Shown here in pieces: positions 5,603-62,642 of a stretch of 64,000 bases of DNA. The stretch lies in the NCBI RefSeq assembly GCF_040784935.1, contig NZ_CP160680.1, positions 6,057,802 through 6,121,801 on the forward strand. Direction: 5' to 3'. Under the pieces are notes generated by a model. That model made no database searches. It was not told the DNA's origin and worked only from the letters and a program-made list of their open reading frames with translations. The first letter of the stretch is position 1. Every line of letters begins with the position of its first letter. The translations under genes and the position numbers were made by a program. Source of the stretch: Lewinella sp. LCG006 (GTDB taxonomy: Bacteria > Bacteroidota > Bacteroidia > Chitinophagales > Saprospiraceae).

Positions 5603-5664
5603 TCTATTATTTACTTTTTCTGAATACTTTATTGACCTACTAATGATATAGTAACCAAATGGTA

Positions 5665-12978: not shown

Positions 12979-12982
12979 CGAT

Positions 12983-45083: not shown

Positions 45084-45923
45084 ATGATCAATTTATTTCA
45101 AAATCCTCAATTAGCTGCTTTATTAGATAGGGATGGTGTCGCCAAGATTCCTTTTCTAAGCGAGGAAGCGTTAAGGGAGCTGCAAGCGTTCCAACGCCAG
45201 ATTCACCCAAATGACCAGCTCCCGAAGGTTTACGACAATATTTACATGACCACCTGGTGTCCTGATCTTGCTTATAAGCTAGCTATCAAACAAAAGATTA
45301 AGCAAATTTTCGAGCAGGCTTATGCCCGGCATTTCCAGCATTTCCGATCGCTCAACCACGTGTTTATCATTAAAAATCCGGGGCAGGAAACGACTTTCAA
45401 TATTCACCAGGATTGGAGTGTGGTGGATGAAACGAAGTGGCCGTCTTACAATATTTGGGTACCGCTACAAGATGTAGATGAGGATTCCGGAGCGATGTGG
45501 ATCATCAAAAAAAGCCACCGCTTAACCGCCAATATTCGAGGTGCCGGGCAGTTGTTTCCCAATTACATGGATGCGATGGAGGAGCTGCGCCCCTACATGG
45601 TTAATTTTCCGATGAAAGCAGGAGAAGCGCTGGTTTTCCGGCACAGTACAATTCACGGTTCACCGCCTAATTTATCTGATCAAGCGCGCGTCGTTGCGGC
45701 AGCCTCTATTATTCCAGCGCAAGCACCCTTGAAGATCCATTTTCAGGCGATTGGAGGGGATCAGATCGAAGTAGTATCCCCCAAAGATGATTTTATTTAC
45801 CATTACGACAGCCTGCGCGAAGACTCAGTCAAAGCACCACCGCCCGGAAGAAAAATCGGCCAGCTCGATGCCAGTAACTATCGGCAGCTTTCGGTGCCGG
45901 AAATTATCGAGATGATTCAATAA
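45084..45923 (+). CDS. Phytanoyl-CoA dioxygenase (PhyH) family protein
   Basis: Predicted Fe(II)/2-oxoglutarate oxygenase of 279 residues. The jelly-roll facial triad is complete: His108 and Asp110 (NIHQDWSVVDE) and distal His191 (IHGSPPN), with Arg202 to bind 2-oxoglutarate. The family block VPLQDVDEDSGAMWIIKKSHR is intact. Near the C-terminus it has PPGRKIGQL, a weak version of the RPxxGRSLG motif shared by several PhyH proteins here. It is a lone plus-strand gene between the MBOAT operon and the Wzt gene. The substrate is unknown and may be an acyl, lipid or sugar group of the local glycan. Confidence 0.85.
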   Translation: MINLFQNPQLAALLDRDGVAKIPFLSEEALRELQAFQRQIHPNDQLPKVYDNIYMTTWCPDLAYKLAIKQKIKQIFEQAYARHFQHFRSLNHVFIIKNPGQETTFNIHQDWSVVDETKWPSYNIWVPLQDVDEDSGAMWIIKKSHRLTANIRGAGQLFPNYMDAMEELRPYMVNFPMKAGEALVFRHSTIHGSPPNLSDQARVVAAASIIPAQAPLKIHFQAIGGDQIEVVSPKDDFIYHYDSLREDSVKAPPPGRKIGQLDASNYRQLSVPEIIEMIQ

Positions 45924-45961
45924 ACTTAGAGCTTGTGTAAAAATAGCATACAGTCCAGCAT

Positions 45962-47260
45962 TTACTCCTCAAGATCAGCAACCTCCCAATCTAACGGAAC
46001 TTTAAATAACGCAGAACTTTCCCACCCCCGACCTACTTCTCTTGGGTTCAGGTGAATTCGAAACTTCAATAAATAGGGCCATTCGTGCTTCAGCTTGCCA
46101 TTTGCGCCACAAAATACACTGAGCGTGTACAAGCCTTGATTCAAGATATTGCCGGGAATACTTGCCCGTACCTGATAGCGACCTGTTTCTGTTTTTTTTA
46201 TTTGATAATCAACACGTAATGCGTACGAGTCTAATATCAGTTGAGCACCTTCGGCATTTAGCAAGCGGATGCCAACTTCCATGCTAGTATCTTCAAGGTC
46301 TTTTTGTATACCAATGGCGATGCCTATTTCGTCACAGGTGTAGATGGGAGCTTCAGGAGTCTTACCCTTGGCAGCTACCGACAAATTCAATAAGCTAAAG
46401 TCATCATTACTCGTAACATTAGGAGGTTCAGGCCATTTTTGGTTATTTCCTTCCTTCAAATTGGTCAACTCATTTTGTTCCATTTGCCCATCCAGTACTT
46501 CCTCCAGGTAATCCTCCAAAATGGCTTTTGTCTCACCAAACGCTTTAAGCTTCCCTTTTTCCAACCAAAGGCATTTATTGCACAATTCAATGATTTGCCG
46601 ATTGGTATGGCTCGCAAGTATAATAGTGGCCCCAGCAGTGGCCAGTTCTCTGATCCGATCAAAGCTTTTGCGTTGGAAGGCCGCATCGCCTACCGCTAGC
46701 ACCTCATCAAGGACCAAAATATCAATATCAGCGTGGAAGGCTATAGAAAAAGCGAGGCGAAGAAACATGCCACTCGAATAATGCTTAACGGGAGAATCGA
46801 TAAAGTCTTCTACTCCGCTGAACGCCAGAATATCTGGCAAGCGTGCTTGAATTTCTTGCTTGCTCATGCCTAGCACTGCACCGTTCAGGAAAATATTCTC
46901 GCGACCACTCAGGTCGGGATGGAAGCCCGTACCAATTTCCAGGATGGGCGTTAATTCACCTTGATAGATGATTTCACCGCTCGTCGGGGCCGTCACTTCG
47001 CTTAATATCTTCAGTAGGGTGCTTTTGCCCGCACCGTTAGGGCCAATAATGCCCAGCACATCCCCTTTTTCTAATTGAAAGCTCACTTCCTTTAAAGCCC
47101 AGAACTGATCCGCTCCGGCTGTTATTTTTCGCCGCCGAAAAAGGCTCTTGACCCCTTCCATGACTTCCTCCCGAATGGAGTCGTGCATTCGTTGGTCCTT
47201 GTGATAAAGCTTTGAAAGCTGCTTTACCTCTAGAACGGGGGGACTTGTCTTTTCCTCCAT
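45962..47260 (-). CDS. wzt: Polysaccharide ABC exporter ATPase with Wzt C-terminal domain
   Basis: ATPase of an ABC-2 glycan exporter, 432 residues. Walker A GPNGAGKST is at 73-81, the ABC signature in KHYSSGMFLRLAFS, Walker B in DILVLDEVLAVGD, and the H-loop in LASHTNRQI. Residues about 290-430 form an extra beta domain of the Wzt-C type (TCDEIGIAIGIQ ... GNILNQGLYTLSVFCG). In known systems this domain recognises the modified non-reducing end of the glycan before export. That makes it a natural reader of oxidised or methylated ends produced by neighbouring enzymes. The permease gene is 2 kb upstream, with a PhyH and a methyltransferase gene between. Confidence 0.9.
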   Translation of the reverse strand: MEEKTSPPVLEVKQLSKLYHKDQRMHDSIREEVMEGVKSLFRRRKITAGADQFWALKEVSFQLEKGDVLGIIGPNGAGKSTLLKILSEVTAPTSGEIIYQGELTPILEIGTGFHPDLSGRENIFLNGAVLGMSKQEIQARLPDILAFSGVEDFIDSPVKHYSSGMFLRLAFSIAFHADIDILVLDEVLAVGDAAFQRKSFDRIRELATAGATIILASHTNRQIIELCNKCLWLEKGKLKAFGETKAILEDYLEEVLDGQMEQNELTNLKEGNNQKWPEPPNVTSNDDFSLLNLSVAAKGKTPEAPIYTCDEIGIAIGIQKDLEDTSMEVGIRLLNAEGAQLILDSYALRVDYQIKKTETGRYQVRASIPGNILNQGLYTLSVFCGANGKLKHEWPYLLKFRIHLNPREVGRGWESSALFKVPLDWEVADLEE

Positions 47261-47265
47261 GACGA

Positions 47266-48315
47266 TTAAAGTTCTCCTTGTTCTCTACCCCATATTTTCA
47301 TGTGGTACAAATTCTGCAAAAAGTAGCGGCTATTGCCCAAACCAATATCGTACCAGGGCTTGAAGCACTTGATCTCGAAAAAGTCAACGGGAAAAACGTA
47401 TTCTTCCCAATTTTCAATGACGGCAATACCCGTTAATTCCTGAAAATCGTTGGAAATCGTCAGGTTCTCGAAATCTTCCAACTTGAGGTCGATGGTCTTC
47501 ATCTGAGAGATGATAAACCCCTGTTTACGAAGGGCGTGCAACACTTGATAAAGATCGGCGATATTGTAGCGATAGGCGGTATTGATCCGGCCGATTTCAT
47601 GATCTATTTTTGCTTCGTGTTCTGGCAAAACGGCAATTTTTCGGAACAGATCTTTCAAGTACAACACGCCACCGGGCTTTAAAACCTCCCAGGTCGAAGC
47701 AATAGCGAGCGCATGATCGTAAGAATGCCCGAAGGATTCCAGGAAATAGACCGCGTCGAAATGATCTGCTGGAAAATAGTTTTTCAGCTGGTGGTAATCG
47801 CCCTTTTGCACCCGTACTTTTTCAGCTAGACCAGCAGCTTGAATTCGTTGCTGCGCCTGCTGCACTTGTTCTTCTGAAACCGTCACGGCTTCTACCTCCA
47901 CCTCCGCTTGCTGAGCGAAGTAGATGGCAGGGCCACATACGCCACAACCGGCATCCAGCACTCGTTGGCCTTTTTCCAGGCCGATCGCCTCAATTTGATA
48001 GTCCAGCAGTTTCGTCACATCGGTCGTTCGGAAAGCCTGGATGACCTCTCCGTAGGTTTTCAGGAACTTATCGTTGTACTTATCATAAAAATCACCTACC
48101 TGCTCCGGACGGCTGGGAGTCTGGTTATTCCTGATGGCAAAAGATTGATCCTTTTTTCGCCATTGCCTCCAGAAAAAGCCATTGAGCAGTATGGAGAGTC
48201 CCAGCAAACTATAAACTATAAGCATAAAACCGGGTATTAAATATTGGTCTGGACTTTCGGTATTCGCCGAAGGTCGTAGAGGGATTTTGAGTAAAGGGTA
48301 GAAAGATAGGAACAC
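47266..48315 (-). CDS. Class I SAM-dependent methyltransferase with N-terminal membrane helix
   Basis: A 349-residue protein. The catalytic part has motif I VLDAGCGVCGPAIYFA, followed by VEAVTVSEEQVQQAQQR, a GDYHQL acidic loop, FDAVYFLESFGHS and LKPGGVLYLKDLF, the layout of sterol/tocopherol-type methyltransferases. An N-terminal hydrophobic segment (YSLLGLSILLNGFFW) suggests membrane anchoring. The start is uncertain: ATG 48225 (MLIVYSLLG) is also possible. Lying between Wzt and a PhyH gene, it may cap a glycan end, as WbdD-type enzymes do in ABC-exported O-antigens, or methylate a lipid. Stop 5 bases before wzt. Confidence 0.78.
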   Translation of the reverse strand: MFLSFYPLLKIPLRPSANTESPDQYLIPGFMLIVYSLLGLSILLNGFFWRQWRKKDQSFAIRNNQTPSRPEQVGDFYDKYNDKFLKTYGEVIQAFRTTDVTKLLDYQIEAIGLEKGQRVLDAGCGVCGPAIYFAQQAEVEVEAVTVSEEQVQQAQQRIQAAGLAEKVRVQKGDYHQLKNYFPADHFDAVYFLESFGHSYDHALAIASTWEVLKPGGVLYLKDLFRKIAVLPEHEAKIDHEIGRINTAYRYNIADLYQVLHALRKQGFIISQMKTIDLKLEDFENLTISNDFQELTGIAVIENWEEYVFPVDFFEIKCFKPWYDIGLGNSRYFLQNLYHMKIWGREQGEL

Positions 48316-48439
48316 GCTAGTAGAAACTGATCTTTAATTACCCAACATCGGCTTTTCTCCTTAATGTTGGAAATAATTGACTAATTCTTCGCTCCCCCTC
48401 TACCTTCTACTTCAAGGGCGCGAAGCAGCCCGCATCCAA

Positions 48440-49306
48440 CTACGGACTTTCGTCGAAAGTCCAGCTTAGAAAAGACCGCAGCTGGCTCCACCAATTCCGT
48501 TTTGGCACCTCTCCCAGAAATGAAGACCGAAAAGTAGGCGCATCCAAAACGGGAGTTTGCACCTCCAGTTGGCGCAACAATTCCAGATCGGCGGGCCCGG
48601 CACCAGGGTTGCCCTCCAGATAAAAGGCAGGGGAACAAGCATATTCGTTGATTTTTCCATCCTGCTGGTAATAATACCGCATGGGGGCTTGCCGGTGAAT
48701 AACACCAAACACGACCGCCAGGCGCAAAGCCTCTGATTGATTAGGGCCGGAACCATGTACCAGGCGATGATCGTAGATCAATGCTTGCCCCGCTTTCATC
48801 TCCAGTACTTCCATCGCAGACCACACGAGAGGTCGCACTTCGTCAAACGCGTTGGGTAGGTTTGCGCCCCGGAATGTCGGCAGCTTACGGTGGCTTCCCG
48901 GCAGGATTTCCACGGCACCGTTTTCTTTGGCCACGTCGACCAATGGTATCCAAGTGTTAAATGACCGATGCTGTTCTTCGTCCACAATATTCCAATCCTG
49001 GTGCGGCTGCAGGACACCATCATCACCAGCAGCTTTGGCAATGAATGTTCCCCCAAGGGCCAGGCCGTCCGTAAAGTGCTGCTCCACCAAAGGGCCAATT
49101 ATCTTACGAAGTTCATCACTGATGTGATTCCGAAAACCGGGGTCAGGCACGTGAGCGGAAGCATAAAATCCCTGGACAGGATCTGGATGAAGGCTCTCGA
49201 AAAGGGTCCGTAAATGCTCCACCTGGGTCATTTCCAAAAAAGGAACGATCACGTAGCCGTTCTCTAAGAGTTGGTCATCCAGCTGGTCTTCAATTAATAT
49301 TTTCAC
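48440..49306 (-). CDS. Phytanoyl-CoA dioxygenase (PhyH) family protein
   Basis: A 288-residue Fe(II)/2OG oxygenase with an intact centre: His102, Asp104 (PHQDWNIVDE), His184 (LVHGSGPNQ) and Arg195. The ENGAVEILPGSHRK block is standard. The C-terminus (RNWWSQLRSFLSWTFDESP) is a short aromatic amphipathic tail that could touch the membrane. The gene starts 19 bases after the Wzm permease gene and lies inside the exporter operon, which ties its product to the exported glycan. Confidence 0.85.
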   Translation of the reverse strand: MKILIEDQLDDQLLENGYVIVPFLEMTQVEHLRTLFESLHPDPVQGFYASAHVPDPGFRNHISDELRKIIGPLVEQHFTDGLALGGTFIAKAAGDDGVLQPHQDWNIVDEEQHRSFNTWIPLVDVAKENGAVEILPGSHRKLPTFRGANLPNAFDEVRPLVWSAMEVLEMKAGQALIYDHRLVHGSGPNQSEALRLAVVFGVIHRQAPMRYYYQQDGKINEYACSPAFYLEGNPGAGPADLELLRQLEVQTPVLDAPTFRSSFLGEVPKRNWWSQLRSFLSWTFDESP

Positions 49307-49325
49307 ACTATCCGTTGATTATTGG

Positions 49326-50153
49326 TTATAAAAAGTCTACGATCTTTCGTTCTACCCGGATGAAATAAAGCAAGCCCGTGAAGAATAGAAACAAAACCGG
49401 AATCAGCGAAACCAGGTAATACATACTGGGTAATACATCTCCCAACAAAGCCCAGCGGAAGCCCGCTATTACGAAGGCCAGCGGATTGATGAAGAGCGCC
49501 CAGTTGTAGGCTTCGGGAATAATCGTCCCGGGATAGAAAACCGGCGTGAGCCAGATGCCGAAGTTAACCAGATAAGGTATGATATGGTAAAAGTCGCGGT
49601 ACCTGAAAGTTAATGCACTTAACCACAAAGCGATTGCTAAGCCGCTTAGGATATTTAAAAATAAAAAAACGGGGACAAGTAGCATCGTCCACATTATGGG
49701 GTGCCCGGTAGCCACTAAAGTCAATATCAAAAGTAAAAAAGTGATACCAAAGTCAACAAAACCAACCAACACCTTGGCCAAAAGCAGAATGATTTTGGGG
49801 AAATAAATCTTCTTGATCAGCTCCTGCCCCTCCGTCAAAGCATTACCAGCAGCGGTCACGATGAACGCAAAATAATACCAGGCAACGATTCCTGTGAAAG
49901 CAAAAACAGGATAAGGAATATTACCAGTATCCAGTGGGATAAGCTCCTGAAAAAACAAGGTAAAAATAGCCAGTCCGGTAAGCGGTTGGATGATTACCCA
50001 AAGCATTCCGAGTACCGTTTGTGCGTATTTAGCCTTGACATCCCTTAGGGCTAAAGTCAGGAGAAAATGACGATAGGACCAAATTCGAGAGCAGTAGTCT
50101 GCCCAACTTAGCTGGCTGGATGTGATTTTTTTCAAAGTGTGTGGCTTTTGCAA
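49326..50153 (-). CDS. wzm: Polysaccharide ABC exporter permease (ABC-2 type)
   Basis: Membrane component of the Wzm/Wzt exporter. It has the conserved entry LALRDVKAKYAQTVLGMLWVIIQPL before the first membrane helix, about six hydrophobic segments, and the ABC-2 block FRYRDFYHIIPYLVNFGIWLTPVFYP. The ATG at 50219 would overlap the upstream gene by 56 bases, so I favour TTG 50153 (or TTG 50135), which gives a normal length of about 275 residues. The start is therefore uncertain. It works with the ATPase encoded at 45962-47260. Confidence 0.88.
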   Translation of the reverse strand: MQKPHTLKKITSSQLSWADYCSRIWSYRHFLLTLALRDVKAKYAQTVLGMLWVIIQPLTGLAIFTLFFQELIPLDTGNIPYPVFAFTGIVAWYYFAFIVTAAGNALTEGQELIKKIYFPKIILLLAKVLVGFVDFGITFLLLILTLVATGHPIMWTMLLVPVFLFLNILSGLAIALWLSALTFRYRDFYHIIPYLVNFGIWLTPVFYPGTIIPEAYNWALFINPLAFVIAGFRWALLGDVLPSMYYLVSLIPVLFLFFTGLLYFIRVERKIVDFL

Positions 50154-50163
50154 AAAGAGAAGA

Positions 50164-51090
50164 CTAAGTCCAGAGAATAATTTCCTCTGATGCTTTACTG
50201 CTACCCAGAAAGCCTCCAAAGGTAATTCGATCCTGATTTCCTTTTACGATTTCAACTCTGTGCCACAACTGACCTCCCTGGAAGAGAATTAAATCTCCTG
50301 GTTGAGGATTAACACTTTCTGATCCTACACGACGATCAGTGTGCAAATTGATGATACTTCCGTCGGGCAACTTCAAACAATCCTCGCCTACTTCATTAGG
50401 GCCCATTTTTATTTGTCCTTCTTCCCAAGGTAAGCTGTAGGTGGTGAGCTCTCCTCCTTCTTCTGCCTGCTGCAGTACAATAAAGTAACTCACCTGATTT
50501 TTGATCTCTACCTGATGAGATAGCTCACGGTAAAAAAGTTCAAATTGTCTTTGCAGGTCATTGCCACAGTGGAGATCAAAACCTCCGACCTCTTTGTAAA
50601 GTCGGCGAAAAGAGCCAAACGGATAGTTATTGGAACGATCCGGCTCATTGATTCTAGTGATCGGCAAAGCAGGTTCGATTAGAAGGAAGAAAGCACTAAT
50701 CTTGGCAAAAAGATCTACCCCAAATCGGCTAGGAAAAATCTGATGGTAATCATTGACCAAGTGATAATATTTCGCTAATTTTTCTTCCTTGCCTTTAGCA
50801 TCCGAATTTTCCAACTCTTTTGAAAGGGACGGCATCGTGATCGGATAAGAATCCCCGGTTCGATTGAGTAAAGGAGTTGCTTTTTCTTCTAATACCAACA
50901 TAAGATTATTTAGAACCAGGTCAAGTTCACTTTTTGACAAGAAATTCTTGACTAGAAACCCGTCAAATTCTTTTGAGAAGAGCTTCTGGATAGCATTCGG
51001 ATACAGAGCTGGCATTTCCTCTTTTTCTACCTGTATAAAAGAAAAATGAGGCCGCGAAGGCTTAAAAAAGTTGATTACTTTTTGGAACAT
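50164..51090 (-). CDS. 2OG-Fe(II) oxygenase-like protein, not PhyH type
   Basis: A 308-residue protein with a prolyl-hydroxylase-like C-terminal half: PQPGDLILFQGGQLWHRVEIVKGNQDRITFGGFLG gives distal His277 and 2OG-binding Arg288. The first metal ligands are less clear: His174 lies in FDLHCGND, so the carboxylate would be at H+4 (Asp178), not the usual H+2. The N-terminus MFQKVINFFKPS is a short amphipathic segment. It opens the minus-strand exporter operon, directly ahead of Wzm. It is probably another oxidative tailoring enzyme, but could be catalytically altered. Confidence 0.65.
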   Translation of the reverse strand: MFQKVINFFKPSRPHFSFIQVEKEEMPALYPNAIQKLFSKEFDGFLVKNFLSKSELDLVLNNLMLVLEEKATPLLNRTGDSYPITMPSLSKELENSDAKGKEEKLAKYYHLVNDYHQIFPSRFGVDLFAKISAFFLLIEPALPITRINEPDRSNNYPFGSFRRLYKEVGGFDLHCGNDLQRQFELFYRELSHQVEIKNQVSYFIVLQQAEEGGELTTYSLPWEEGQIKMGPNEVGEDCLKLPDGSIINLHTDRRVGSESVNPQPGDLILFQGGQLWHRVEIVKGNQDRITFGGFLGSSKASEEIILWT

Positions 51091-51162
51091 TGATTTAATT
51101 ACTAAAATTACCGGTAAGATGAGCTGAAAACAGATTCATCTTGTGAAGAAATGTTTTGTTAG

Positions 51163-51170
51163 CAAAATTA
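51163..51170 (-). promoter_or_regulatory. Possible Bacteroidota -7 element
   Basis: TAATTTTG on the minus strand matches TAnnTTTG, 73 bases ahead of the oxygenase/exporter operon start. A second near-copy (TAATTTTA) lies closer to the start codon. The 93-base gap between divergent genes must hold both promoters; no clear -33 TTG was fixed. Confidence 0.3.
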
Positions 51171-51183
51171 CCTATATTCCTCC

Positions 51184-52146
51184 ATGAATATTCTTAATCT
51201 CTTTCGAAAAACTTCAGCAAAAGCGACTTGGCGCCCCATCCCACACACCGTCCTCAAGGATGCAGGTTTACGATCTGTTCTCCACGAAGAGGGGATCGCC
51301 ATCCGCCCTTTTCTAAACGAGGTCCAATTAAAGGAATTAAGGGCACTCTACCAAGCTGAACACCAGATTACCGACCGCGACGGAGGGATGTTCTACAGCG
51401 TTTACTCGCGGGATTTTGACTACCGCCAGCGTATTCACAAGGCCATTCAGGCCATCCTACAACCTACGCTTGATCAATGGCTGACGGATTACCGAACGGT
51501 ACTCAACTCCTTTATCATTAAAGCTTCCGGTCCGAAAAGTGAATTCTACCTGCACCAGGATACCACCGGACTAGACGAAACCAAGTACTCTACGCTTTCG
51601 TTCTGGATTCCGCTCGAAGATGTGGATGAGACTAACGGGGCCATGTGTGTCATCCCTAAAAGCCATCACTGGTTTTCGCCCTACCGAGGGATTTCCTTTC
51701 CCCCACCGTATCAGGATATCGCCGATACGGTAAGGGCTTACCTCAAACCGATGCCTGTTAAGGCGGGCGAAGCAGTCATCTTTGACAATCGTATTCTCCA
51801 CAATTCACTGCCCAATACCTCGGGTAAAAACCGAGTGGTAGTCATGGCGGGTGTTTTCCCCAAAGAAGCGTCCATTATGACTTGTTACAAAGATGCAGTT
51901 ACAGAGAATGCGAAAATAGAACTGATCGAACATGACGATGATTTTCTCTTGCGCTATCCCAACTTCCTGATCGACTGCCATGTACGACCTAGCGTAGGGC
52001 GTTCTATTGGGTTCGTTGCAGATGAATACCCTCCAATGAGCGCCGAAGTATTTGAGCGATTATGTGCCGAAAATGGCATCAAAAAACAGGACTTTATCAC
52101 ACAAGAAATGGGCGATTGCAATTTGATCGGAGAACCACTGGGGTAG
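51184..52146 (+). CDS. Phytanoyl-CoA dioxygenase (PhyH) family protein
   Basis: A 320-residue Fe(II)/2OG oxygenase with complete ligands His124, Asp126 (YLHQDTTGLDE), His206 (ILHNSLPN) and Arg217. It carries the shared C-terminal signature RPSVGRSIGF. A 30-residue extension at the N-terminus starts MNILNLFRKT, an amphipathic stretch that resembles the C-terminal tails of two other PhyH proteins here. The gene stands alone on the plus strand, divergent from the exporter operon, and ends in a long inverted-repeat region. Confidence 0.85.
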   Translation: MNILNLFRKTSAKATWRPIPHTVLKDAGLRSVLHEEGIAIRPFLNEVQLKELRALYQAEHQITDRDGGMFYSVYSRDFDYRQRIHKAIQAILQPTLDQWLTDYRTVLNSFIIKASGPKSEFYLHQDTTGLDETKYSTLSFWIPLEDVDETNGAMCVIPKSHHWFSPYRGISFPPPYQDIADTVRAYLKPMPVKAGEAVIFDNRILHNSLPNTSGKNRVVVMAGVFPKEASIMTCYKDAVTENAKIELIEHDDDFLLRYPNFLIDCHVRPSVGRSIGFVADEYPPMSAEVFERLCAENGIKKQDFITQEMGDCNLIGEPLG

Positions 52147-52181
52147 GGTGTCCAATTTGTCAGGCCAAAGTTTAATAGAAA

Positions 52182-52434
52182 CACCTCGGAGAGGTGAAAT
52201 ATTGGTAGAATAAAGATAAGTGAGCGATGAAACGACCTCGGATGAGCCCGTCTGGCCAAGGCTTGCCGGACAGGGTCGCATATTAGGAAATGTCGCCCCC
52301 AGTTTTGATTCTTTCTGTCCCGTCAGCCAATGTGGATTGATATTCGACCCTGTCCGACTAGCCAGGCGGGCTCATCCGAGGTCGCTTTAACTCCAATAAA
52401 CACAGTTCTTCCAATATATGACCTCTCTGAGGTC
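52182..52434. repeat. Large imperfect inverted-repeat element
   Basis: Two arms of about 100 bases (52182-52283 and 52336-52434) face each other around a spacer of about 52 bases. Core arms match CGACCTCGGATGAGCCCG ... GGACAGGGTCG with few changes. Each outer end is itself a small palindrome (CACCTCGGAGAGGTG at 52182-52196; GACCTCTCTGAGGTC at 52420-52434), followed by ATATTGG(T/A)AGAA-like sequence. It separates convergent genes. It may be two inverted copies of a dispersed repeat or one non-autonomous mobile element, and would form a stable transcript hairpin. Confidence 0.75.
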
Positions 52435-52492
52435 AAAACCATTCACAAAAATGTGTCCCAACCGATGCTTTTGAAACAGCCCCTGAACAAGT

Positions 52493-53611
52493 CTAATCTC
52501 TCAGGCGCTCCCGCAGTACCTGCTTCGCAAATTGATAAAACTTTCGGTGCCCGGAATTAGTAAAATGATTGCGCGTCTCTACACCATCATAATCATCTCG
52601 TGAAAATGGTGCCAAATCAGGGAAGAAGTAAGCCGTTCCAGCAAAATGAGTGCCATAAGCTTCTTCCATATCCAGCTGCCTAATGACGTCTTCAGGAGAG
52701 GGTATACCCAGGACGATGAAAGCAGCGCCGTTGGATTCCGTCGTCTCCTTCATTGCTCTCAACAGGGTATTTGTTAAAGTAATATTGGGTTTTGCATCAG
52801 ATTTGTTTTTCCTTTCTTTGATATGGCCTATTTTTTTCCTCATCCCCAAATAAATCCGGGATAAGGATATCGTTGGCCTGATGATTTTTTCGAAGGTAGT
52901 TGCGTGTTGCCCCCATAGGGTAAAGTTGTTCAGATAAAAATCATAGGCCTCCTGAGGGGATTCCAAATAAGGTTTGGGATAAGCTCCCATAAAGTAACTT
53001 GGGCCGGTTGAATTTAACCACGAAAAATTATCAATCGTGTAGATCAGCGGAATATTAGGGGTAACCGGTCTTTCGAACAAATAAATATCATTGCCTAAAT
53101 AAAAATTAACGACAACTAAATCAGGTTGGATTTCCCGGACATATTTATCGAGCACCAATTTATATTGAAGCAAATCCATCCCACCTACCCCAAAATTCAG
53201 AAGAAGGAAATCATCATCAGCCAGTAATAAATCCGGAAAAGATTGACTGACAGGTTCCGCGCAACAACCCTCCGTGTAAGAATCCCCTACCATCAGTACC
53301 ACCTTTTTTCCCTGTCCTCGGCCCAGGGAATCTAAGGTTAAGGAATCAAAATTAAAGGGGCTGCGAAAACCTTGCTCATTGATCAAAAAGCCGTCCGGCA
53401 AATTCCCTCCGTCTTTGTCGTAGATGGTTATCCCGGTGCCCCCTGGATCTGCTTTAAAACGGGGATGGTAGATGAACGTATCAACAGGATAAAGAGAACT
53501 GTCCAAGGTTCCCGGCTTGTTTCCTGCTATTCTTAAGCCCAATTCAAGGATTAAAAAAAGAACGATAAAGATCTTTAGCTGGACAGGGATTTTTGTTAAC
53601 AGGTACTTCAT
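52493..53611 (-). CDS. SGNH/GDSL-type hydrolase with N-terminal membrane anchor
   Basis: A 372-residue esterase or acyl-transfer protein with one N-terminal hydrophobic helix (10-30). SGNH blocks are VGDSYTEG (Ser111), NFGVGGMD (Gly), NFYLGNDIYLF (Asn174) and the C-terminal NHFTNSGHRKF, which supplies the terminal His. The start is ATG 53611, which overlaps the stop of the tandem PhyH gene as ATGA; the frame extends 21 codons further without adding domain sequence. Last gene of the PhyH operon, so an acyl group added to or removed from the same product is likely. Confidence 0.82.
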   Translation of the reverse strand: MKYLLTKIPVQLKIFIVLFLILELGLRIAGNKPGTLDSSLYPVDTFIYHPRFKADPGGTGITIYDKDGGNLPDGFLINEQGFRSPFNFDSLTLDSLGRGQGKKVVLMVGDSYTEGCCAEPVSQSFPDLLLADDDFLLLNFGVGGMDLLQYKLVLDKYVREIQPDLVVVNFYLGNDIYLFERPVTPNIPLIYTIDNFSWLNSTGPSYFMGAYPKPYLESPQEAYDFYLNNFTLWGQHATTFEKIIRPTISLSRIYLGMRKKIGHIKERKNKSDAKPNITLTNTLLRAMKETTESNGAAFIVLGIPSPEDVIRQLDMEEAYGTHFAGTAYFFPDLAPFSRDDYDGVETRNHFTNSGHRKFYQFAKQVLRERLRD

Positions 53612-55482
53612 GAGTTGTAAAATAAGCGGTGCTTGATTTCTCTCAGGATATTGCCGAGTGTATACGTTTCCCAAAAGGATCGTTCGTCGGTTGCTGCTTG
53701 TTTTTGACTTTCCTGAGGCAGCTCATCAAGTTCAGGTCCCACAATCTCGGTAGCGTGTCCTGCTTTTACCAGCATTCTTAGAACCGTTTTTTCTAAAACA
53801 GCAGGCTCCGGTTGCGGTAAGCGATAGGCTTTGGTTCCCAGTGAAGTCCCCATCTTCGGCCGTTGAAAAATGTCTTCGAAAAAATTCTCAAAGCGAATCA
53901 GGAAATCATCTTCCTGGGCAAAGGCTTCCAATTCGGGTGCGCCTTTTTCCTGGTCGTAATAGTGGAAAATCATGGGAGCCCCCTGGGTCTTCACCCCGGC
54001 GGTGATCGCTTTGCGGATATGGTCTGAACGGTTTGGAGGGGAATAATGAATCAGGCTCTGGTTGAGCACCACCGCCTCGCCAGCTTTGACGTACAGCGGG
54101 ATCAGGTGCTTCATAACCACCTCCTCGTTGCCCGTAAAGAAAAATGGTAATGTAGGTGCGCGCAAGACGGGAAAGGAAGGATAATGACTTCCAGGTAACA
54201 CCATCAAGGGCCCATTTTCTGCATGTATATCACAAAGTGGAACCCACACATTAAGGGCAATGTGCTGCTCTTCATCCACAATGGTCCAGTCCTGATGAAG
54301 CACCAGGTCACTATCTTCCGAAGGTATTTTGTAGAGGTACGATCCTCCAAAAGGCGTGTAGTTTTGAAAAAACCGATCGTAACTCTGCTGAAATACCGCT
54401 ACAATTTTATCACTGGCCTTTTTCTTTAGCTCAAAGTCGCCGGAATAGCTATCGGAAACGAAGCCGCTGGCGGGAAGCTGGCGGTGTGTTTCATCAAAAT
54501 ATTGATCCAGTTGCTCGATCTGTTCCTTGGACAAAAAGGGCAGCGTGATATAGCCTTGACGGTCGAATAATGCCTGCTGCTCCGGATCTTTGAAAATGGC
54601 GGGCACCTTGCGTTCTACGGGCTTTTCTCGCTTTTGGAGCTTCCCGTAAGTACGCTCCAAATCCGCCAGCGTTAGCTTAGGGAAGTCATAGTCTACCCAA
54701 CCAAGGCTTCGACCAATCTTGGGTCGATCGTAGATATTCTCCCCAAATTGCTCAAAATTCGTCATGAAGTTATCATCCTGTGCGAAGAGTTCTACTTGCC
54801 CAGGATGGTTCTTTGGGTCACAGTAAGCCGTTTGAAAACGTGCTTCCTGGTGGGTAAAATAGGTGTTCGTCACAATCCGAACCTCCTCCGACAGGTTCGG
54901 CGGCGAATAATGAATGATGCTTTGGTCAAAAATAACGGCCTCACCGGCCTTCAGGAACAAGGGCTCCATGAAATCGATGATCTCTTCCTGCACATCGTCA
55001 TAAACCCCTGGAATGGTCGAACCGCGGTAGGTAGGAACGAGGCGATGGCTGCCCTTGAGCACATACAGCACGCCGTTCGTTTCGGTCAAATCTATTAGAG
55101 GACACCAGATATTGATGCCCGTAAACTCCGATTCGTCCACCAAAGTCATATCCTGATGAACCTGCATCACACTTTCTGGCCCCGGTGATTTGACGATGAA
55201 GCTCCCGCAAACGACCTGATGATCGGTGAGGAATTTTTCCATCCTGCGTCCACCAATACGGCGAATTTCGCTATCTGCCGTTTGGCGATAGTGCTTATCT
55301 TTCGAAAAAGTACTGGGGAAAAAGCCTTGCTCATCCACCGGGTGCAGCTCCTGGTAAAGTTGTTTCAACTCGGCAATCTCCGCTTCATTATAATAAGGTA
55401 CGACTACGTAGCCATGCTCCTCAAAACTGGCTTGCAGAGCTTCGTCTTTAAATACTTTCCTCATCTTGGGGAGCGTAAACAT
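53608..55482 (-). CDS. Tandem two-domain PhyH oxygenase with C-terminal tail
   Basis: A 624-residue protein with two complete PhyH domains. Domain 1 ligands: His109, Asp111, His191, Arg202. Domain 2: His396, Asp398, His479, Arg490. Each domain is followed by the local motif (RPKIGRSLGW; RPKMGTSLGT). After a Gln/Glu-rich linker it ends in RSFWETYTLGNILREIKHRLF, a basic amphipathic tail shared with the upstream protein. Start could also be ATG 55464 (MRKVFKDEAL), which aligns better with sibling N-termini. It overlaps the SGNH gene as ATGA and follows the other tandem PhyH gene by 22 bases. Confidence 0.85.
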   Translation of the reverse strand: MFTLPKMRKVFKDEALQASFEEHGYVVVPYYNEAEIAELKQLYQELHPVDEQGFFPSTFSKDKHYRQTADSEIRRIGGRRMEKFLTDHQVVCGSFIVKSPGPESVMQVHQDMTLVDESEFTGINIWCPLIDLTETNGVLYVLKGSHRLVPTYRGSTIPGVYDDVQEEIIDFMEPLFLKAGEAVIFDQSIIHYSPPNLSEEVRIVTNTYFTHQEARFQTAYCDPKNHPGQVELFAQDDNFMTNFEQFGENIYDRPKIGRSLGWVDYDFPKLTLADLERTYGKLQKREKPVERKVPAIFKDPEQQALFDRQGYITLPFLSKEQIEQLDQYFDETHRQLPASGFVSDSYSGDFELKKKASDKIVAVFQQSYDRFFQNYTPFGGSYLYKIPSEDSDLVLHQDWTIVDEEQHIALNVWVPLCDIHAENGPLMVLPGSHYPSFPVLRAPTLPFFFTGNEEVVMKHLIPLYVKAGEAVVLNQSLIHYSPPNRSDHIRKAITAGVKTQGAPMIFHYYDQEKGAPELEAFAQEDDFLIRFENFFEDIFQRPKMGTSLGTKAYRLPQPEPAVLEKTVLRMLVKAGHATEIVGPELDELPQESQKQAATDERSFWETYTLGNILREIKHRLFYNS

Positions 55483-55504
55483 AACAGTACTTTTATTTTT
55501 TTCG

Positions 55505-57445
55505 TCACTTACCCGTTAAGCGGTAGCGGATTTCCCGTAAAATATTCATCGGCGTATACACTTCGAAAATACGGTGGCGGATTTCCCGCAGGATATTCAT
55601 CGGGGTATAGATCTGCCAAAAACTGCGTTCCTCTATAGCAGGTGTTTTTTCCTGTGGCACCGGCTCAGTGTCTTGCTGAACGGGTGGTGTTTTTTGCGAA
55701 CCATCCAAGTTATAATTGAATAGTTTGGCCAGCTTTTCAATCAGGGCCACGTTCATCGTATTACCGGCGGCTTTGATGCTGTCGACCAATTCATCAGTAT
55801 CCAGCTGGAGTGGCTGGTAAGGCAAGGTCGCCACCAGGGGGTAATCTTCAATGACCTTTCCCTCGTCGTACATTTGCCCCAACAGGGCATTGTTGTATTT
55901 CCGGAAGAAAGCTGTATCAATGTGGTATTTCAGCAGCGCTTGCTGTCGGCCATCTGGTTTCATAAAGTAATGGCACAATTGGGCGTCCTGGTGCGTGAAG
56001 CCCATACCGATCACGATTCGTTGCTCGTCCGTCACATTGGGCGGAGACGCGTGAAAAGTACGGTTGTCAAAGAAAATAGCTTCTCCGGCCTTGAGCTCTA
56101 CAACCTGAACGTAAGGGAATAACGAAAACATATGATCCCGCAAGGGAGAGACCACCTGCGGCGAAGGCGACGGCCGCACATCCGTCAGGAAGCGGTGACT
56201 CCCCTTGATCACGCCTAAGGCCCCGTTCTCGATGGTCACATCCATCAATGGTACCCAGCAATTGACCGAATAGTAGTCGCCTTCCTGGTCCACAAAGGTC
56301 CAATCCTGGTGCACGGGCACTACGCCTTTGGGGTTGGAATCTTTGGTAACAAAAGCAGCTGTAAAAGCTTGTGCATCTTTGAAATGAGGCATTACTTGAG
56401 GGATCGCTTTCGCAAAGAGTGTATCCGTAATCTCCTCCACTAATTGCCGCTGCGGATCATCCATGCTGACGAAGAAACCGTAGCCAGTCTGGTCCTTTAG
56501 CGAAAGCGAATGAAAATAAGCCAACAGTTCATCGACTTGCTCCGGGTTGAAAACACGCTTGACGGTGTAGCCTTGTTCATCAAACTGGGCCTGCATCGCC
56601 GTATCTTGAAATATGGGTTTCATCCGTTTGGATTGATTGATCTTTTTTTGCAAAGTAAAACTCGAAATGGGGCTTAAATCCACCGCATACTCGGCAACTT
56701 GCCGCCCAAGGGTAGGCCGCTGACCGATTTCAGTATAGTACTGAAAAAAGTCGGTCTCTACCTCGTATGCTTCCACCTTTTTGGCTTCATTCAGATGGTA
56801 GAACTGCAACTGGGCCGCTGCGGGGATTAATCCGTAGGTGACGGCTACCCGATCGTGATCTGAGCAGTTTTCATTCGAGGCGTGGATCAGGGCCTGGTTG
56901 AAAACAAAGGCTTGCCCCGCTTTCATCTCCAAAACATCCATTTGCGACCAGATTTCCGCGTAGCGCTGCTCGTAAACCACCGGAATCGAGGGACCACGCA
57001 GCTGATCAAAAAAGCGGTGACTCCTCGGCAACACCCGAATGGCTCCGTTTTCGGCAGTAGTATCCACCAGGGGTATCCAAATGGTGAGGGAGCAAAAGCG
57101 GCTTTCATCCACCACCGTCCAATCTTGATGCACCTGCATTTTCCCACCAGCACCAGGAGGCTTCACCAAGAAGCTACAGCCGAGCGGTTGAAAATCTTTA
57201 AAACAGTGGTCTACCTTCGGCTGCAAAAGACGCTGAATAGGTAGGTGAATCTCCGCTTTACGTTCCGCATCGCTAATAAAGGTGCTGGAGTAAAAGTGAG
57301 GCGGAGGCTCCGAAAAATGCTGCCGGTAATGGTCGCGCAGCTGTGCAACTTCATCCACAGACAAGAAGGGGATGACGAGATAGCCTTCCCGGTCAAACTG
57401 TTCTTGGAGTGAGCTGTCCTGAAAAAGGTTACTTTCCTCCATCAC
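55505..57445 (-). CDS. Tandem two-domain PhyH oxygenase with duplicated tail
   Basis: A 646-residue protein with two PhyH domains. Domain 1: His106, Asp108, His188, Arg199. Domain 2: His379, Asp381, His465, Arg476. Between them, RMKPIFQDTAMQAQFDEQG looks like the normal N-terminus of a single-domain sibling, so the protein arose by end-to-end fusion. After a Pro/Gln/Glu linker the tail motif YTPMNILREIRHRIF occurs twice in tandem (17-residue period). It is in an operon with the HxN PhyH gene 3 bases upstream. The two active sites could oxidise the same position twice or two positions in sequence. Confidence 0.85.
   Translation of the reverse strand: MMEESNLFQDSSLQEQFDREGYLVIPFLSVDEVAQLRDHYRQHFSEPPPHFYSSTFISDAERKAEIHLPIQRLLQPKVDHCFKDFQPLGCSFLVKPPGAGGKMQVHQDWTVVDESRFCSLTIWIPLVDTTAENGAIRVLPRSHRFFDQLRGPSIPVVYEQRYAEIWSQMDVLEMKAGQAFVFNQALIHASNENCSDHDRVAVTYGLIPAAAQLQFYHLNEAKKVEAYEVETDFFQYYTEIGQRPTLGRQVAEYAVDLSPISSFTLQKKINQSKRMKPIFQDTAMQAQFDEQGYTVKRVFNPEQVDELLAYFHSLSLKDQTGYGFFVSMDDPQRQLVEEITDTLFAKAIPQVMPHFKDAQAFTAAFVTKDSNPKGVVPVHQDWTFVDQEGDYYSVNCWVPLMDVTIENGALGVIKGSHRFLTDVRPSPSPQVVSPLRDHMFSLFPYVQVVELKAGEAIFFDNRTFHASPPNVTDEQRIVIGMGFTHQDAQLCHYFMKPDGRQQALLKYHIDTAFFRKYNNALLGQMYDEGKVIEDYPLVATLPYQPLQLDTDELVDSIKAAGNTMNVALIEKLAKLFNYNLDGSQKTPPVQQDTEPVPQEKTPAIEERSFWQIYTPMNILREIRHRIFEVYTPMNILREIRYRLTGK
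55521..55611 (-). repeat. 51-base tandem repeat encoding the duplicated tail
   Basis: Two copies (55521-55560 and 55572-55611, offset 51 bases) encode YTPMNILREIRxR twice at the C-terminus of the tandem PhyH protein. The copies differ at only a few positions, mostly in third codon bases, so the protein motif appears to be conserved. Confidence 0.8.
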
Positions 57446-57448
57446 CTA

Positions 57449-58369
57449 TCAATTAAATAGTGTTTTCAAGCGCTGGAACAAGCCCCCTTTAGGAATCGCT
57501 TCATCAAAACGCGGTTGAAAAAGCTGGGCGGCAAATTCTTCCCTGCTTAAGTTGTTCGGCCTAAAAGGGATGGTTCTGAGGCGTTTGACATTCTCAGGCT
57601 TTTTCCAGGGATTGAATTCCATATAAAAATCATGGTCAACTTCCAGCACCTCCACCTGTGTGGGGGATTTCGAGTGATCCAGGTAGTAATGGATGGAGGG
57701 CATCTCCTGCGGTAGCATAATCAGCTGAATCGCTAAACGTAAGCCCTGCGTTTTATTGATGGCGGAGTAGTGGACAATGCTGTCATCCAGCACTACTGCT
57801 TGTCCGGCTTTGATATTTGCTGGCACCAGATAATTTTCGATAATATCATGCTTGATCCCCTCCAATTCCCAAGGGACCATAGGGCCCCGGTAGCGACCGT
57901 AGCGCTTGTGGCTCCCCGGCACCAGTTGAAGGGTGCCGTTTTCCTCATTACTGTCTACTAAAGGGCACCAGATAGAAACGGAGGTCGCTTGAGTTTCATC
58001 CACAAAGGCCCAATTTTGGTGCAAGGGTACCTCCCCTCCGGTTGCTTTTTTGCGGATATAATTGGCTATGATCGGGCGATACCGATCTAGTATTCGATCT
58101 GCATGAGGTTGAAAGTATTCCGCAATGATGTTGAATACCTTTTTCTTGAACTCAGGATTCTTGTCGATAAATGTGAAATCATAGGTGATTTCATCCATGT
58201 CTACCCCCGTTTCCCCTGCCAGTATATTCCCCCCACTCATCGGCAATGAATCGAAGAAAGCCTGTTTCAGGGTAGCTACCTCCTCATCCGAGATAAAGGG
58301 GATAATTACGTAACCATCTTTTTGAAACTGGGCTTCCAACTCGGGATCAAGAAATGTTTTCCTAAGCAT
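57449..58369 (-). CDS. PhyH family protein with HxN in place of HxD
   Basis: A 306-residue member whose first metal motif reads PLHQNWAFVDE: His117 and Asn119, where siblings have Asp. The codon is AAT. Distal His200 (IVHYSAIN) and Arg211 are kept, as is the ENGTLQLVPGSHK block. Asn is a poor iron ligand, so it may be inactive, have altered chemistry, or serve as a structural or regulatory partner for the tandem enzymes downstream. The C-terminus (GGLFQRLKTLFN) is amphipathic. First gene of the four-gene PhyH-PhyH2-PhyH2-SGNH operon. Confidence 0.85.
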   Translation of the reverse strand: MLRKTFLDPELEAQFQKDGYVIIPFISDEEVATLKQAFFDSLPMSGGNILAGETGVDMDEITYDFTFIDKNPEFKKKVFNIIAEYFQPHADRILDRYRPIIANYIRKKATGGEVPLHQNWAFVDETQATSVSIWCPLVDSNEENGTLQLVPGSHKRYGRYRGPMVPWELEGIKHDIIENYLVPANIKAGQAVVLDDSIVHYSAINKTQGLRLAIQLIMLPQEMPSIHYYLDHSKSPTQVEVLEVDHDFYMEFNPWKKPENVKRLRTIPFRPNNLSREEFAAQLFQPRFDEAIPKGGLFQRLKTLFN

Positions 58370-58489: not shown

Positions 58490-60139
58490 ATGAAAGATGC
58501 CGTTCAAAGCCGAAAAGTATTCCTATTGGTACTGTGTTCCAGTATGCTCTTTGCATTGAAAATTGTGTCGCTTTTTCTTTTGTTTGAAGAAAAAATGGGC
58601 ACTTCCGTCTATTTGTCCATGGTATTAATTACGCCCGTCATTCTCTGCCTGACGCTCACTTTAATTGGCATTGCCAACCGGCGATCCTGGGCTTTAAATA
58701 CTTTTTTGCTAGCCTTTTTCGCCATCCTGCCTACCTTCCTTCTAGGCTTTATTCATATCTGGAAATTCCACTGGGCTTATTATCCTTTCCTCTTGCTGGA
58801 GGTTTTTTGCTTTTTAACTGCGATGATTCAATTAATCCGTCTACCCAAGGATTTCTGGAAGCCAAACACCAGCACTGCTTGGAAAAAACTCCTGCGACCT
58901 GATTTCCTGACCTTGCCCTTCTTTCTGCTGGCTTTACTTGAATTTGGCTTATTTTCCCTGGGTATCAGCCCTTCCGTCATCCAGGGCAATCCTTATTTTC
59001 ATCCCGTTGATAGCCTGGTGGTTTGGCAAGATTACTCGGCAGACGAATATGGCTTGACCCACGTGAATGCACAGGGCGCTGAGCTTGCCGCGAACGGCAC
59101 TTGGCTAGGCAAAGAAAGAACGAAAGAATCTGACCCGTACAGGACCTACTCGTTCTCCACCATATCTATTTTTGAGGATTGGACCCTACTCAGAGAAGCG
59201 CCCCCTACCCTGCCTTTCGCTCACCTTCTGGCGGATTTAAAACAGCGGCCGGACACTTTGCTCGACGAACTTGACCGGGCTCATCTTGAATTTCTGAATC
59301 GCCCCATCAACAGTCATGGCTATCGGAGTATTCCCTTTAAGAACTATGCTACGGATAGACCTACCGTTTTACTCCTTGGCGACTCCTTTACTTTCGGCTG
59401 GTCGGCACGACCTTGGTTTGGATCATTTGCGGATCACTTGCGTGCTTTAGGTTACGTGGTTTACAATGCGGGCATTTCAGGTACTGGTCCAGATCAATAT
59501 GCCGCCGCCGCAAAGGTGTTTATTCCAATGCTAAAGCCAGATTATGTGATCGTCAATTTCTTTGTAGGCAATGATATTCTTTACTTCCCCGTCGAAACGA
59601 AACCTTACGAAATGGTCTACTATCCTACCAATGCCGGTGTAATGATGGCGCGGCCCACTTACGAGCGCATTCCAACAGCGGAAGAAGCATTTCAATTTTA
59701 TCTCAATCAATACTATATTCCACTAAACAGCTTTTTCAATAAATTTTGTGCCTACACCTCAGTAGGATCCATCTTTTGGAGGCTAGGCAAACGATTTAGT
59801 ATTTTCCAATCCATAACCAACGCTCCCAATCAGGAATATTTTGAACGGAACCTGATGCATCGATCGACAAGGCCCGTCTCCGAAGCTTACCTTCTAGAAA
59901 TTGAAGCACTTTGTCAACAGGAAGGGAGTCAATTTGTCTGTTCCATCATTCCTGACCTCAAAAATCTCCGGCCTGACCTGGATAAAGATTACCCTGACTT
60001 GTTTCAAAGCATAACCCCCGTTATCATACAGCTCAGTGAAAAAGACTACAACCTCAAGGATACCCATTTTAATCTACAAGGGCACGAACGCTACAGCCGT
60101 TTTCTGGATAGTTTGATGAGATCAATTCCCGCTAACTGA
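58490..60139 (+). CDS. Membrane protein with C-terminal SGNH hydrolase domain
   Basis: A 549-residue protein with about five membrane helices in residues 10-160, then an extracytoplasmic SGNH domain: Ser299 in LLLGDSFTFGW, NAGISGTGPDQY (Gly), VNFFVGNDILYF (Asn) and DTHFNLQGHERYSRF for the terminal Asp-His pair. The domain closely resembles the SGNH protein at 52493-53611 (shared VVNFxxGNDIxxF and similar spacing) but has gained a membrane domain. It may be an acyl-transferring or deacylating enzyme acting on exported glycan. The next gene follows after 17 bases. Confidence 0.8.
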   Translation: MKDAVQSRKVFLLVLCSSMLFALKIVSLFLLFEEKMGTSVYLSMVLITPVILCLTLTLIGIANRRSWALNTFLLAFFAILPTFLLGFIHIWKFHWAYYPFLLLEVFCFLTAMIQLIRLPKDFWKPNTSTAWKKLLRPDFLTLPFFLLALLEFGLFSLGISPSVIQGNPYFHPVDSLVVWQDYSADEYGLTHVNAQGAELAANGTWLGKERTKESDPYRTYSFSTISIFEDWTLLREAPPTLPFAHLLADLKQRPDTLLDELDRAHLEFLNRPINSHGYRSIPFKNYATDRPTVLLLGDSFTFGWSARPWFGSFADHLRALGYVVYNAGISGTGPDQYAAAAKVFIPMLKPDYVIVNFFVGNDILYFPVETKPYEMVYYPTNAGVMMARPTYERIPTAEEAFQFYLNQYYIPLNSFFNKFCAYTSVGSIFWRLGKRFSIFQSITNAPNQEYFERNLMHRSTRPVSEAYLLEIEALCQQEGSQFVCSIIPDLKNLRPDLDKDYPDLFQSITPVIIQLSEKDYNLKDTHFNLQGHERYSRFLDSLMRSIPAN

Positions 60140-62535: not shown

Positions 62536-62642
62536 AATGCAATATTTTCGAAGCCTCAAAAGTACTTAGAACGCATGGTTTTTCCCACAAAAGCAAATGT
62601 GTTTACCTCTGCCCAGGGCACTAGACTTATTTTTTCCGGCGC

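Follow-up and report, generated by a model that had tools for sequence, protein, structure and literature searches.

A PhyH oxygenase array at a Wzm/Wzt locus of Lewinella sp. LCG006: candidate machinery for oxidising, and possibly halogenating, an exported glycan

Why should a bacterial polysaccharide exporter be surrounded by a whole set of oxygenases? The question is raised by a 64,000-nt stretch of Lewinella sp. LCG006 (NZ_CP160680.1; genome of 7,507,556 bases on one contig), called the window below, in which genes for iron- and 2-oxoglutarate-dependent (Fe/2OG) oxygenases of the PhyH family are interleaved with those for a Wzm permease, a Wzt ATPase and a methyltransferase. Genes are named here by their first position in the window (Table 1). 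Our preferred answer, to which we give a slightly better than even chance, is that a lipid-linked glycan is modified by the Fe/2OG oxygenases, some of them membrane-attached, and by a putative halogenase, and is then exported by a dedicated Wzm/Wzt pair. Support at the sequence level comes from gene content, recurrence, orthology of gene slots, two unusual iron sites (His-x-Gly, HxG, and His-x-Asn, HxN), gene fusions and C-terminal tails. The fuller picture, an export system that halogenates and multiply oxidises a surface glycan, with a natural His-x-Asn PhyH protein at its core in several families of one order, is put forward tentatively and lies on the doubtful side of even.

The PhyH array and its recurrence beside Wzm

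All open reading frames (ORFs) of the first-pass annotation, which had been made from the letters alone, were recovered at the same coordinates in an ORF check of the window. The six PhyH proteins with eight domains that it had described amid Wzm, Wzt and a methyltransferase were borne out by the Pfam scan (PF05721, cut-off 22 bits); the SGNH hydrolase that it had counted among the interleaved genes gave a weak match, under the cut-off. Genome-wide, nine PhyH matches were found at E <= 0.001, and chance clustering was rejected because eight of them sit in this cluster. The Wzm/Wzt pair consists, at the sequence level, of an ABC-2 permease and a Wzt-type ATPase. A profile of 10 array Wzt proteins matched full-length Wzt chains of the A. 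aeolicus type (8dku/7k2t, positions 10-396); the match spans the C-terminal part, yet the ATPase supplies most of the score.

PhyH was present at 1e-8 in 21 of 40 relatives, with tight arrays in G397, G424 and G428, and at 1e-12 in 251 of 396 genomes of the order, 52 of which had five or more hits (G, f and L numbers are our handles for genomes, families and loci). For PhyH richness 27 genomes were chosen, four of them from family f2, and the rates given for them are not population rates. They hold 4-16 PhyH hits each among the matches listed. From the 27 genomes we fetched the array stretches and the neighbourhood of each of the 50 Wzm hits, annotated them with our own profiles, and made array counts on the fetched loci, not on the PhyH match listing. 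Wzm hits occur in 25 of the 27 genomes, and in 16 of the 27 three or more PhyH domains lie no farther than 10 kb from a Wzm. With G491 and G512, which were fetched because of WelO5, the genomes with an array Wzm number 18, in six families. PhyH genes near wzm/wzt, the check proposed in the first-pass annotation, are thus recurring and, as described below, slot-orthologous. In all, 52 Wzm genes could be counted, with at least three PhyH domains near 18, one or two near five and none near 29. In 12 of the 18 array-Wzm genomes there is another Wzm hit, with no PhyH as near as 10 kb. For nine of these 12, that hit falls in a clade of 21 rows (88/97), 18 of which have wzt adjacent and none of which is one of the 18 array Wzm proteins. 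The two extra Wzm hits of G397 have weak scores and long branches and are perhaps not Wzm at all. Of the 11 chosen genomes without an array Wzm, five have arrays (see below), and the other six (G635, G704, G705, G747, G751 and G759) showed no array beside a Wzm among their PhyH genes, of which only part was fetched. If true, six or more families within a single order of Bacteroidota would share the module.

The iron motif HxD was found in seven of the eight window PhyH domains, 57449 having HQN instead. Among 240 PhyH domains of the fetched loci, 211 carry HxD...H...R, 24 carry HxN...H...R and five are incomplete. A motif RPxxGRSLG had been reported as shared by several domains and taken as a sign of local expansion from one ancestor. 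It is exact only in the first domain of 53608 (RPKIGRSLG), and the other three of the four domains that bear it do so approximately (51184, RPSVGRSIG; 53608 second, RPKMGTSLG; 55505 first, RPTLGRQV). The common ancestor fared better. Twenty outgroup PhyH loci were fetched for a rooted test and 18 were usable, L106 (the ninth PhyH of this genome) and L119 giving none. The eight window domains fell in a 234-row clade (SH, Shimodaira-Hasegawa support, 93) made up of 232 of the 235 rows from fetched loci, three lying outside, and two of the 18 outgroup domains, both from array-bearing f62 genomes. This suggests that the window domains probably descend from a single ancestor.

The domain tree (FastTree, midpoint root; 235 of 240 rows kept, five domains shorter than 150 letters dropped) resolved the array into old slots. 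Clades extending over six families were obtained for 57449 (16 rows, 16 genomes, SH 99), the second domain of 55505 (18 rows, 18 genomes, SH 95) and the second and first domains of 53608 (12 rows, 12 genomes, SH 99; 15 rows, 15 genomes, SH 86). Those of the first domain of 55505 (14 rows, 12 genomes, SH 98), 51184 (10 rows, nine genomes, SH 99) and 45084 (six rows, six genomes, SH 99) extend over four families. Protein 48440 groups solely with its same-genus orthologue, and it is the top window match of a G428 protein (L007:12026, 38%). The two domains of 53608 correspond to separate genes in G397 and G428. Window domains join their orthologues from other families before they join each other. 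Since the slots are orthologous across families, recent local duplication of the PhyH genes was ruled out, and the supposed local expansion gives way to old, slot-conserved paralogues. The set would behave like a fixed series of steps.

Two unusual iron sites

Protein 50164 had been described as a seventh, non-PhyH 2OG-like protein. That it is a 2OG enzyme stands, but a generic type was ruled out: it matched PF22814 (WelO5) at 166.7 bits (cut-off 27) and aligned with WelO5 chains of the PDB at E about 1e-19. In this alignment its HCGND pairs with HVGND of WelO5, which puts a Gly at the position of the Asp/Glu iron ligand of hydroxylases. The Ser of the WelO5 motif QLSYF (Ser189, which is involved in chlorination) is retained in 50164 too, and 30 of 32 full-length WelO5-like members have it. 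These 32, which include the window protein and leave out WelO5 itself and three short rows (two HCG, one without the site), comprise 22 with HxG, five with HxE, three with HxD and two with HxH. The HxE and HxD relatives occupy the same kind of arrays, and the counts therefore indicate that arrays use carboxylate-bearing and carboxylate-free versions alike. Set against the five HxE and three HxD proteins, 50164 and its 21 HxG relatives would make up a naturally occurring series in which to follow how such enzymes change between halogenating and hydroxylating. The WelO5-like tree requires three changes for HxG and places 13 HxG rows in one clade (100/99); the nearest intact relative of 50164 that was fetched is 37-38% identical.

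A review passage states that exchange of the carboxylate for Gly permits halide binding (PMC8407142), a preprint passage uses HXG/A as a criterion for halogenation (PMC12871659), and passages from these papers also have WelO5 working on free substrates. With the WelO5/AmbO5 halogenases 50164 has in common the family, HxG, the distal His, the 2OG-binding Arg and the QLSYF Ser, whereas it lies in a Bacteroidota glycan-export locus and they lie in a cyanobacterial alkaloid cluster. Halogenation by 50164 appears likely from its sequence. Halogenases that take free, possibly sugar, substrates would be useful catalysts, if this is true. A predicted structure of 50164 reached a predicted local distance difference test score (pLDDT) of 40.6 and was not used.

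WelO5-like genes accompany PhyH richness. The Pfam WelO5 model at 1e-6 was found in two of 395 genomes of a phylum sample, this genome included, and a broader WelO5-like alignment at 1e-8 in 25 of 396 genomes of the order. Such a gene is present in 22 of the 52 PhyH-rich genomes (at least five hits, up to seven candidates being scored per genome) vs three of the 344 others (Fisher p 7e-19, kinship ignored), and in these three (G583, G624, G482) one or two PhyH genes lie in the same fetched stretch. The proteins of G583 (L126) and G624 (L127), beside one or two PhyH genes, are distant relatives with the iron site HIHQE, and the gene of G583 is also near wzm-wzt. The counterpart of 50164 in G397 (L003:17924-18894, HCG) is split into two ORFs, and a second copy there (L004:10177-11103, HCG) is intact. 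In G531 (L129, G531:C112, 4196-8900), wzm and wzt are followed by three tandem WelO5-like genes with HNG, with no PhyH within the 20-kb stretch.

The second unusual site is the HxN of 57449. The string EVP(L/M/V)H(Q/E)NW was read in 20 of the 24 HxN domains, each from a different genome, and these 20 genomes belong to six families. The 13 relatives of 57449 are 48-64% identical to it, and His117, Asn119, His200 and Arg211 are invariant across the 14 aligned rows of the slot. The retention of H117, H200 and R211 in every row argues that 57449 is unlikely to be a dead enzyme. In 11 of the 20 genomes the HxN gene and wzm share a strand and either overlap or are no more than 90 bases apart. In four (the window included) they are separated by 1.8-7.2 kb, and in five the fetched stretch around the HxN gene contains no wzm. 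In a scan of the order with the slot profile, 40 of 376 genomes matched at E <= 1e-86 and 52 at 1e-45 (up to three candidates scored per genome; the HxN letters themselves were read in 20 genomes). At 1e-45 this genome alone matched among a 296-genome phylum sample.

The structure predicted for 57449 has the PhyH fold (pLDDT 81.1; predicted template modelling score, pTM, 0.83). Foldseek ranked AviO1, SnoK, MysH, PHYHD1, SyrB2, SptF and EvdMO1 first, with E-values that hardly differ and TM-scores, normalised by query length, of roughly 0.45-0.5. The NCBIfam chlorinating-enzyme model gave 21.7 bits, far below its cut-off of 226.3, and a narrow literature search gave, among the matches listed, no naturally occurring 2OG enzyme with an HxN site whose reaction has been described. 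We infer that 57449 may be either an enzyme that uses halide or another anion or a hydroxylase with two His ligands, the latter being ranked slightly higher. If true, this conserved HxN site would add a naturally occurring variant to the known iron sites of Fe/2OG enzymes.

Proposed role and competing explanations

The locus would work like an ABC-transporter-dependent glycan system with chain-finishing enzymes, but with an oxygenase set of a kind that none of the literature matches listed describes. In the order of steps that we propose, a lipid-linked glycan would be assembled on the cytoplasmic side by the nearby glycosyltransferases. The PhyH enzymes would oxidise it at several positions, some of them held at the membrane by a C-terminal amphipathic helix, and the methyltransferase (47266) would methylate it. 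Protein 50164 would add a halogen, most likely chlorine, to an unactivated carbon. Wzm/Wzt would then export the product, and the C-terminal part of Wzt may check, as happens in WbdD-type systems, that the end is finished. The best reading is still the one suggested in the first-pass annotation, oxidative tailoring of an exported glycan, with a glycan as the presumed substrate. If true, a bacterial surface polymer would here be finished by chemistry known from antibiotics and alkaloids, in which unactivated carbons are chlorinated or undergo C-H oxidation by radical steps. We know of no earlier halogenase built into a polysaccharide exporter.

O-antigen assembly by ABC transporters with WbdD (E. 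coli O9a, Klebsiella O3/O5/O7) is alike in Wzm and the long Wzt. Chain terminators of the WbdD type combine a methyltransferase/kinase with a coiled-coil ruler and a membrane helix. According to passages of one paper, such systems also have a methyltransferase in the locus and modifying enzymes with amphipathic helices, the C-terminal region of WbdD (Klebsiella O3/O5) includes a membrane-associated amphipathic helix, and the finished chain end is recognised by a carbohydrate-binding module that belongs to the ATPase (PMC11231755). The modifying set here, in contrast, consists of PhyH oxygenases, often with a WelO5-type enzyme added. Poribacteria, too, are reported to be rich in varied PhyH genes, most of them without an assigned role, in passages that name no link to a glycan exporter and no HxN or WelO5 component (PMC3909097). 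Among the literature matches listed, most subscription journals lying outside the search, no PhyH-array glycan-export system was described.

Fusions join the parts of the array. Wzt is fused to PhyH in G512, a methyltransferase is fused to two PhyH domains in G436 and G448, and G446 has a PhyH-methyltransferase fusion. EvdMO1 (6ec3), which was deposited as a methyltransferase-domain protein and is matched by the array PhyH profile and by fold, parallels the latter three. In addition, the C-terminus of many array PhyH proteins consists of a linker followed by a short stretch that is aromatic, cationic and amphipathic. A tail rule (hydrophobic moment >= 0.55 in an 11-residue window of the last 16 residues, net charge at least +1) was passed by 86 of 198 array PhyH proteins vs two of 18 other PhyH ORFs. 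When the last 60 residues of the array proteins were shuffled, 19 of 198 passed in one round, and 20 rounds gave a mean of 14.6 and a maximum of 22. The excess persists at five thresholds from 0.45 to 0.65. Few partner proteins pass (methyltransferase 0/16, WelO5-like 0/20, Wzt 1/22, Wzm 2/19). The last 40 residues of 55505 hold the tail YTPMNILREIRxR twice in tandem, and a single such tail ends 53608 and two-domain PhyH proteins of f62, f74 and f75 genomes. The tails are taken as putative membrane anchors, with docking to a partner as an equally plausible role.

Which carbons would be oxidised? The nearby glycan genes (UbiA-GT4, ArnC-type GT2, WecE-type transaminase over its cut-off, GNAT and MBOAT) have relatives on the same contig in G397. 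The solved PhyH relatives found by sequence or fold include EvdO2, AviO1, SnoK, SnoN, HygX, KanJ and EvdMO1. These enzymes belong to antibiotic pathways, those of orthosomycins and aminoglycosides in the case of EvdO2, AviO1, EvdMO1, HygX and KanJ, and most of the seven (EvdO2, AviO1, HygX, KanJ and SnoK/SnoN) oxidise sugars. The likeness is one of profile and fold only, and the array PhyH proteins differ in adjoining Wzm/Wzt and in forming their own clade vs 16 of the 18 other PhyH domains. Sugar carbons would be our first choice of target and lipid or acyl carbons the second.

Several points weigh against the tailoring of an exported glycan. The 18 array Wzm proteins do not form one clade (10 changes in the Wzm tree; one of 500 shuffles as low), and an array-type Wzm of single origin was unsupported. 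Homologues without wzm/wzt, which the first-pass annotation had named as a sign against its idea, occur in some genomes: Wzm is near at least three PhyH domains in 16 of 27 genomes, but no Wzm was found in the array stretches fetched from G424, G434, G453, G468 and G474. Wzt is present in three of these stretches (G424, L006; G453, L057; G474, L041), and G468 has no Wzm hit anywhere in its genome. The array is also patchy within the genus: G397 has it, but at 1e-8 PhyH gave only two hits in G395 and none in G396. No Pfam model matched the C-terminal part of Wzt in the Pfam scan. The tail rule is passed by 58 of 365 other array ORFs (21 after shuffling), so part of the tail effect is general, and in the window only 53608 and 55505 pass at 0.55, 57449 reaching 0.52 and 45084, 48440 and 51184 failing. 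WelO5-like genes are absent from 30 of the 52 PhyH-rich genomes, and halogenation would therefore be at most an optional step. Protein 50164 falls outside the well-supported 13-row HxG clade, with no settled position in the tree. AspH hydroxylates although it lacks a carboxylate ligand, as a passage on it states (PMC10947486), and HxG alone is therefore no proof of halogenation. PHYHD1, MysH, EctD, SyrB2 and fungal meroterpenoid enzymes score similarly to or better than the sugar oxygenases, so sugar substrates are only suggested.

The AspH precedent makes it a real possibility, short of even, that 50164 and 57449 do not halogenate at all and are two-His hydroxylases or non-catalytic partners. 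The HxE and HxD relatives of 50164 in the same array type fit this explanation, and so does the result that no halogenase with an HXN site was found among the literature matches listed, in a narrow search. Against it, 50164 itself is of the WelO5 family, HxG is the commonest state of that family and is kept in the 13-row clade (of which 50164 is not a member), and 57449 keeps its two His and its Arg in 14 of 14 rows. A different doubt concerns the target. The amphipathic tails, the CMAS-type methyltransferase, and MBOAT and KAS III nearby would also suit oxygenases that act on the lipid carrier or an acyl part (polyprenol, lipid A, acyl substituents) rather than on sugars, and the closest solved sequences include those of human PHYHD1 and PhyH. 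PhyH proper uses acyl-CoA as its substrate. However, EvdO2, SnoN and SnoK score about equally, and the count of distinct slots would better suit varied sugar positions; a lipid or acyl target is considered unlikely.

Still less probable, in our view, is that the enzymes make a small oxidised and halogenated natural product which the Wzm/Wzt-like pair exports, the glycan genes being mere neighbours. WelO5 and many PhyH relatives are indeed natural-product enzymes, a family of the radical SAM/B12 type (SAM, S-adenosylmethionine) lies near the arrays of nine genomes, and five arrays are without Wzm in the fetched stretch. The locus, however, holds a long Wzt of the O-antigen type, glycosyltransferases and a WecE-type transaminase, a direct Wzt-PhyH fusion exists, and the HxN gene adjoins wzm in 11 of 20 genomes. 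No megasynthase of the non-ribosomal peptide or polyketide type was seen among the window proteins scanned, which were part of the window ORFs. Tailoring of a glycan before export remains the reading that we prefer.

Features of the window and its surroundings

The coordinates of the array genes and their neighbours are collected in Table 1.

Table 1 Genes of the array and its neighbourhood (positions in the window)
Feature	Position	Strand	Evidence
PhyH oxygenase, HQD (slot 45084)	45084..45923	+	PF05721 70.1 bits
Wzt ATPase, long C-terminal part, 432 aa	45962..47260	-	ABC_tran
SAM methyltransferase, CMAS/Methyltransf_25 type	47266..48315	-	Profile matches; relatives PhyH-fused in G436, G448, G446
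PhyH oxygenase, HQD	48440..49306	-	PF05721 75.5 bits
Wzm permease	49326..50219	-	ABC2_membrane
WelO5-family Fe/2OG enzyme, HCG, putative halogenase	50164..51090	-	PF22814 166.7 bits
PhyH oxygenase, HQD, RPSVGRSIG motif	51184..52146	+	PF05721 82.5 bits
SGNH/GDSL-like protein, weak	52493..53674	-	PF13472 24.2 bits, under cut-off 32.9
Two-domain PhyH (HQD, HQD), cationic amphipathic C-terminal tail	53608..55482	-	PF05721 141.8 bits, two stretches
Two-domain PhyH (HQD, HQD), tandem tail	55505..57445	-	PF05721 148.3 bits, two stretches
PhyH with His-Gln-Asn replacing His-x-Asp	57449..58369	-	PF05721 85.0 bits
MBOAT O-acyltransferase adjoining the array	43355..44794	-	83% identical orthologue in G397
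DUF1574-like protein beside MBOAT	42339..43355	-	Weak Pfam match; 75% identical in G397
UbiA-GT4 fusion glycosyltransferase	39980..42295	-	Relatives in 13 genomes, four families (single-linkage cluster)
WecE-type dTDP-4-amino-4,6-dideoxygalactose transaminase	35978..37105	-	NF008687 457.2 bits vs cut-off 375
SGNH/GDSL-like protein	58490..60139	+	PF13472 32.7 bits, slightly below cut-off 32.9
GT2, ArnC-like glycosyltransferase	61603..62559	-	Below equivalog cut-off
GNAT acetyltransferase-fold protein	60965..61612	-	42% relative in G397

The cluster of relatives of 52493 also includes 58490 and extends to three genomes, this one counted. No RNA families or tRNAs were found within the 64-kb window. 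A radical SAM protein with a B12-binding domain, found near arrays (L006:14283-15788; cluster in nine genomes), possibly supplies a further C-methylation step.

The array is flanked by a giant cadherin/Ig-like protein of 4496 aa (16182-29672, -) and a TPR protein (29932-32685, -); relatives of the giant protein adjoin the arrays of G397 (58% identical over a cut ORF) and, more weakly, of G428. Nearer the start of the window, genes for a flavin-dependent (FAD-binding) oxidase, a short-chain dehydrogenase/reductase (SDR) and a HAD-Wzy_C fusion follow in succession (11668-15720, +). Together with UbiA-GT4 (39980), they are reminiscent of what we take to be a DprE1/DprE2-like polyprenyl-phosphoryl pentose route. 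A Receptor-L domain protein (3287-5713, -) carries a Por secretion tail and is presumably a cargo of type IX secretion.

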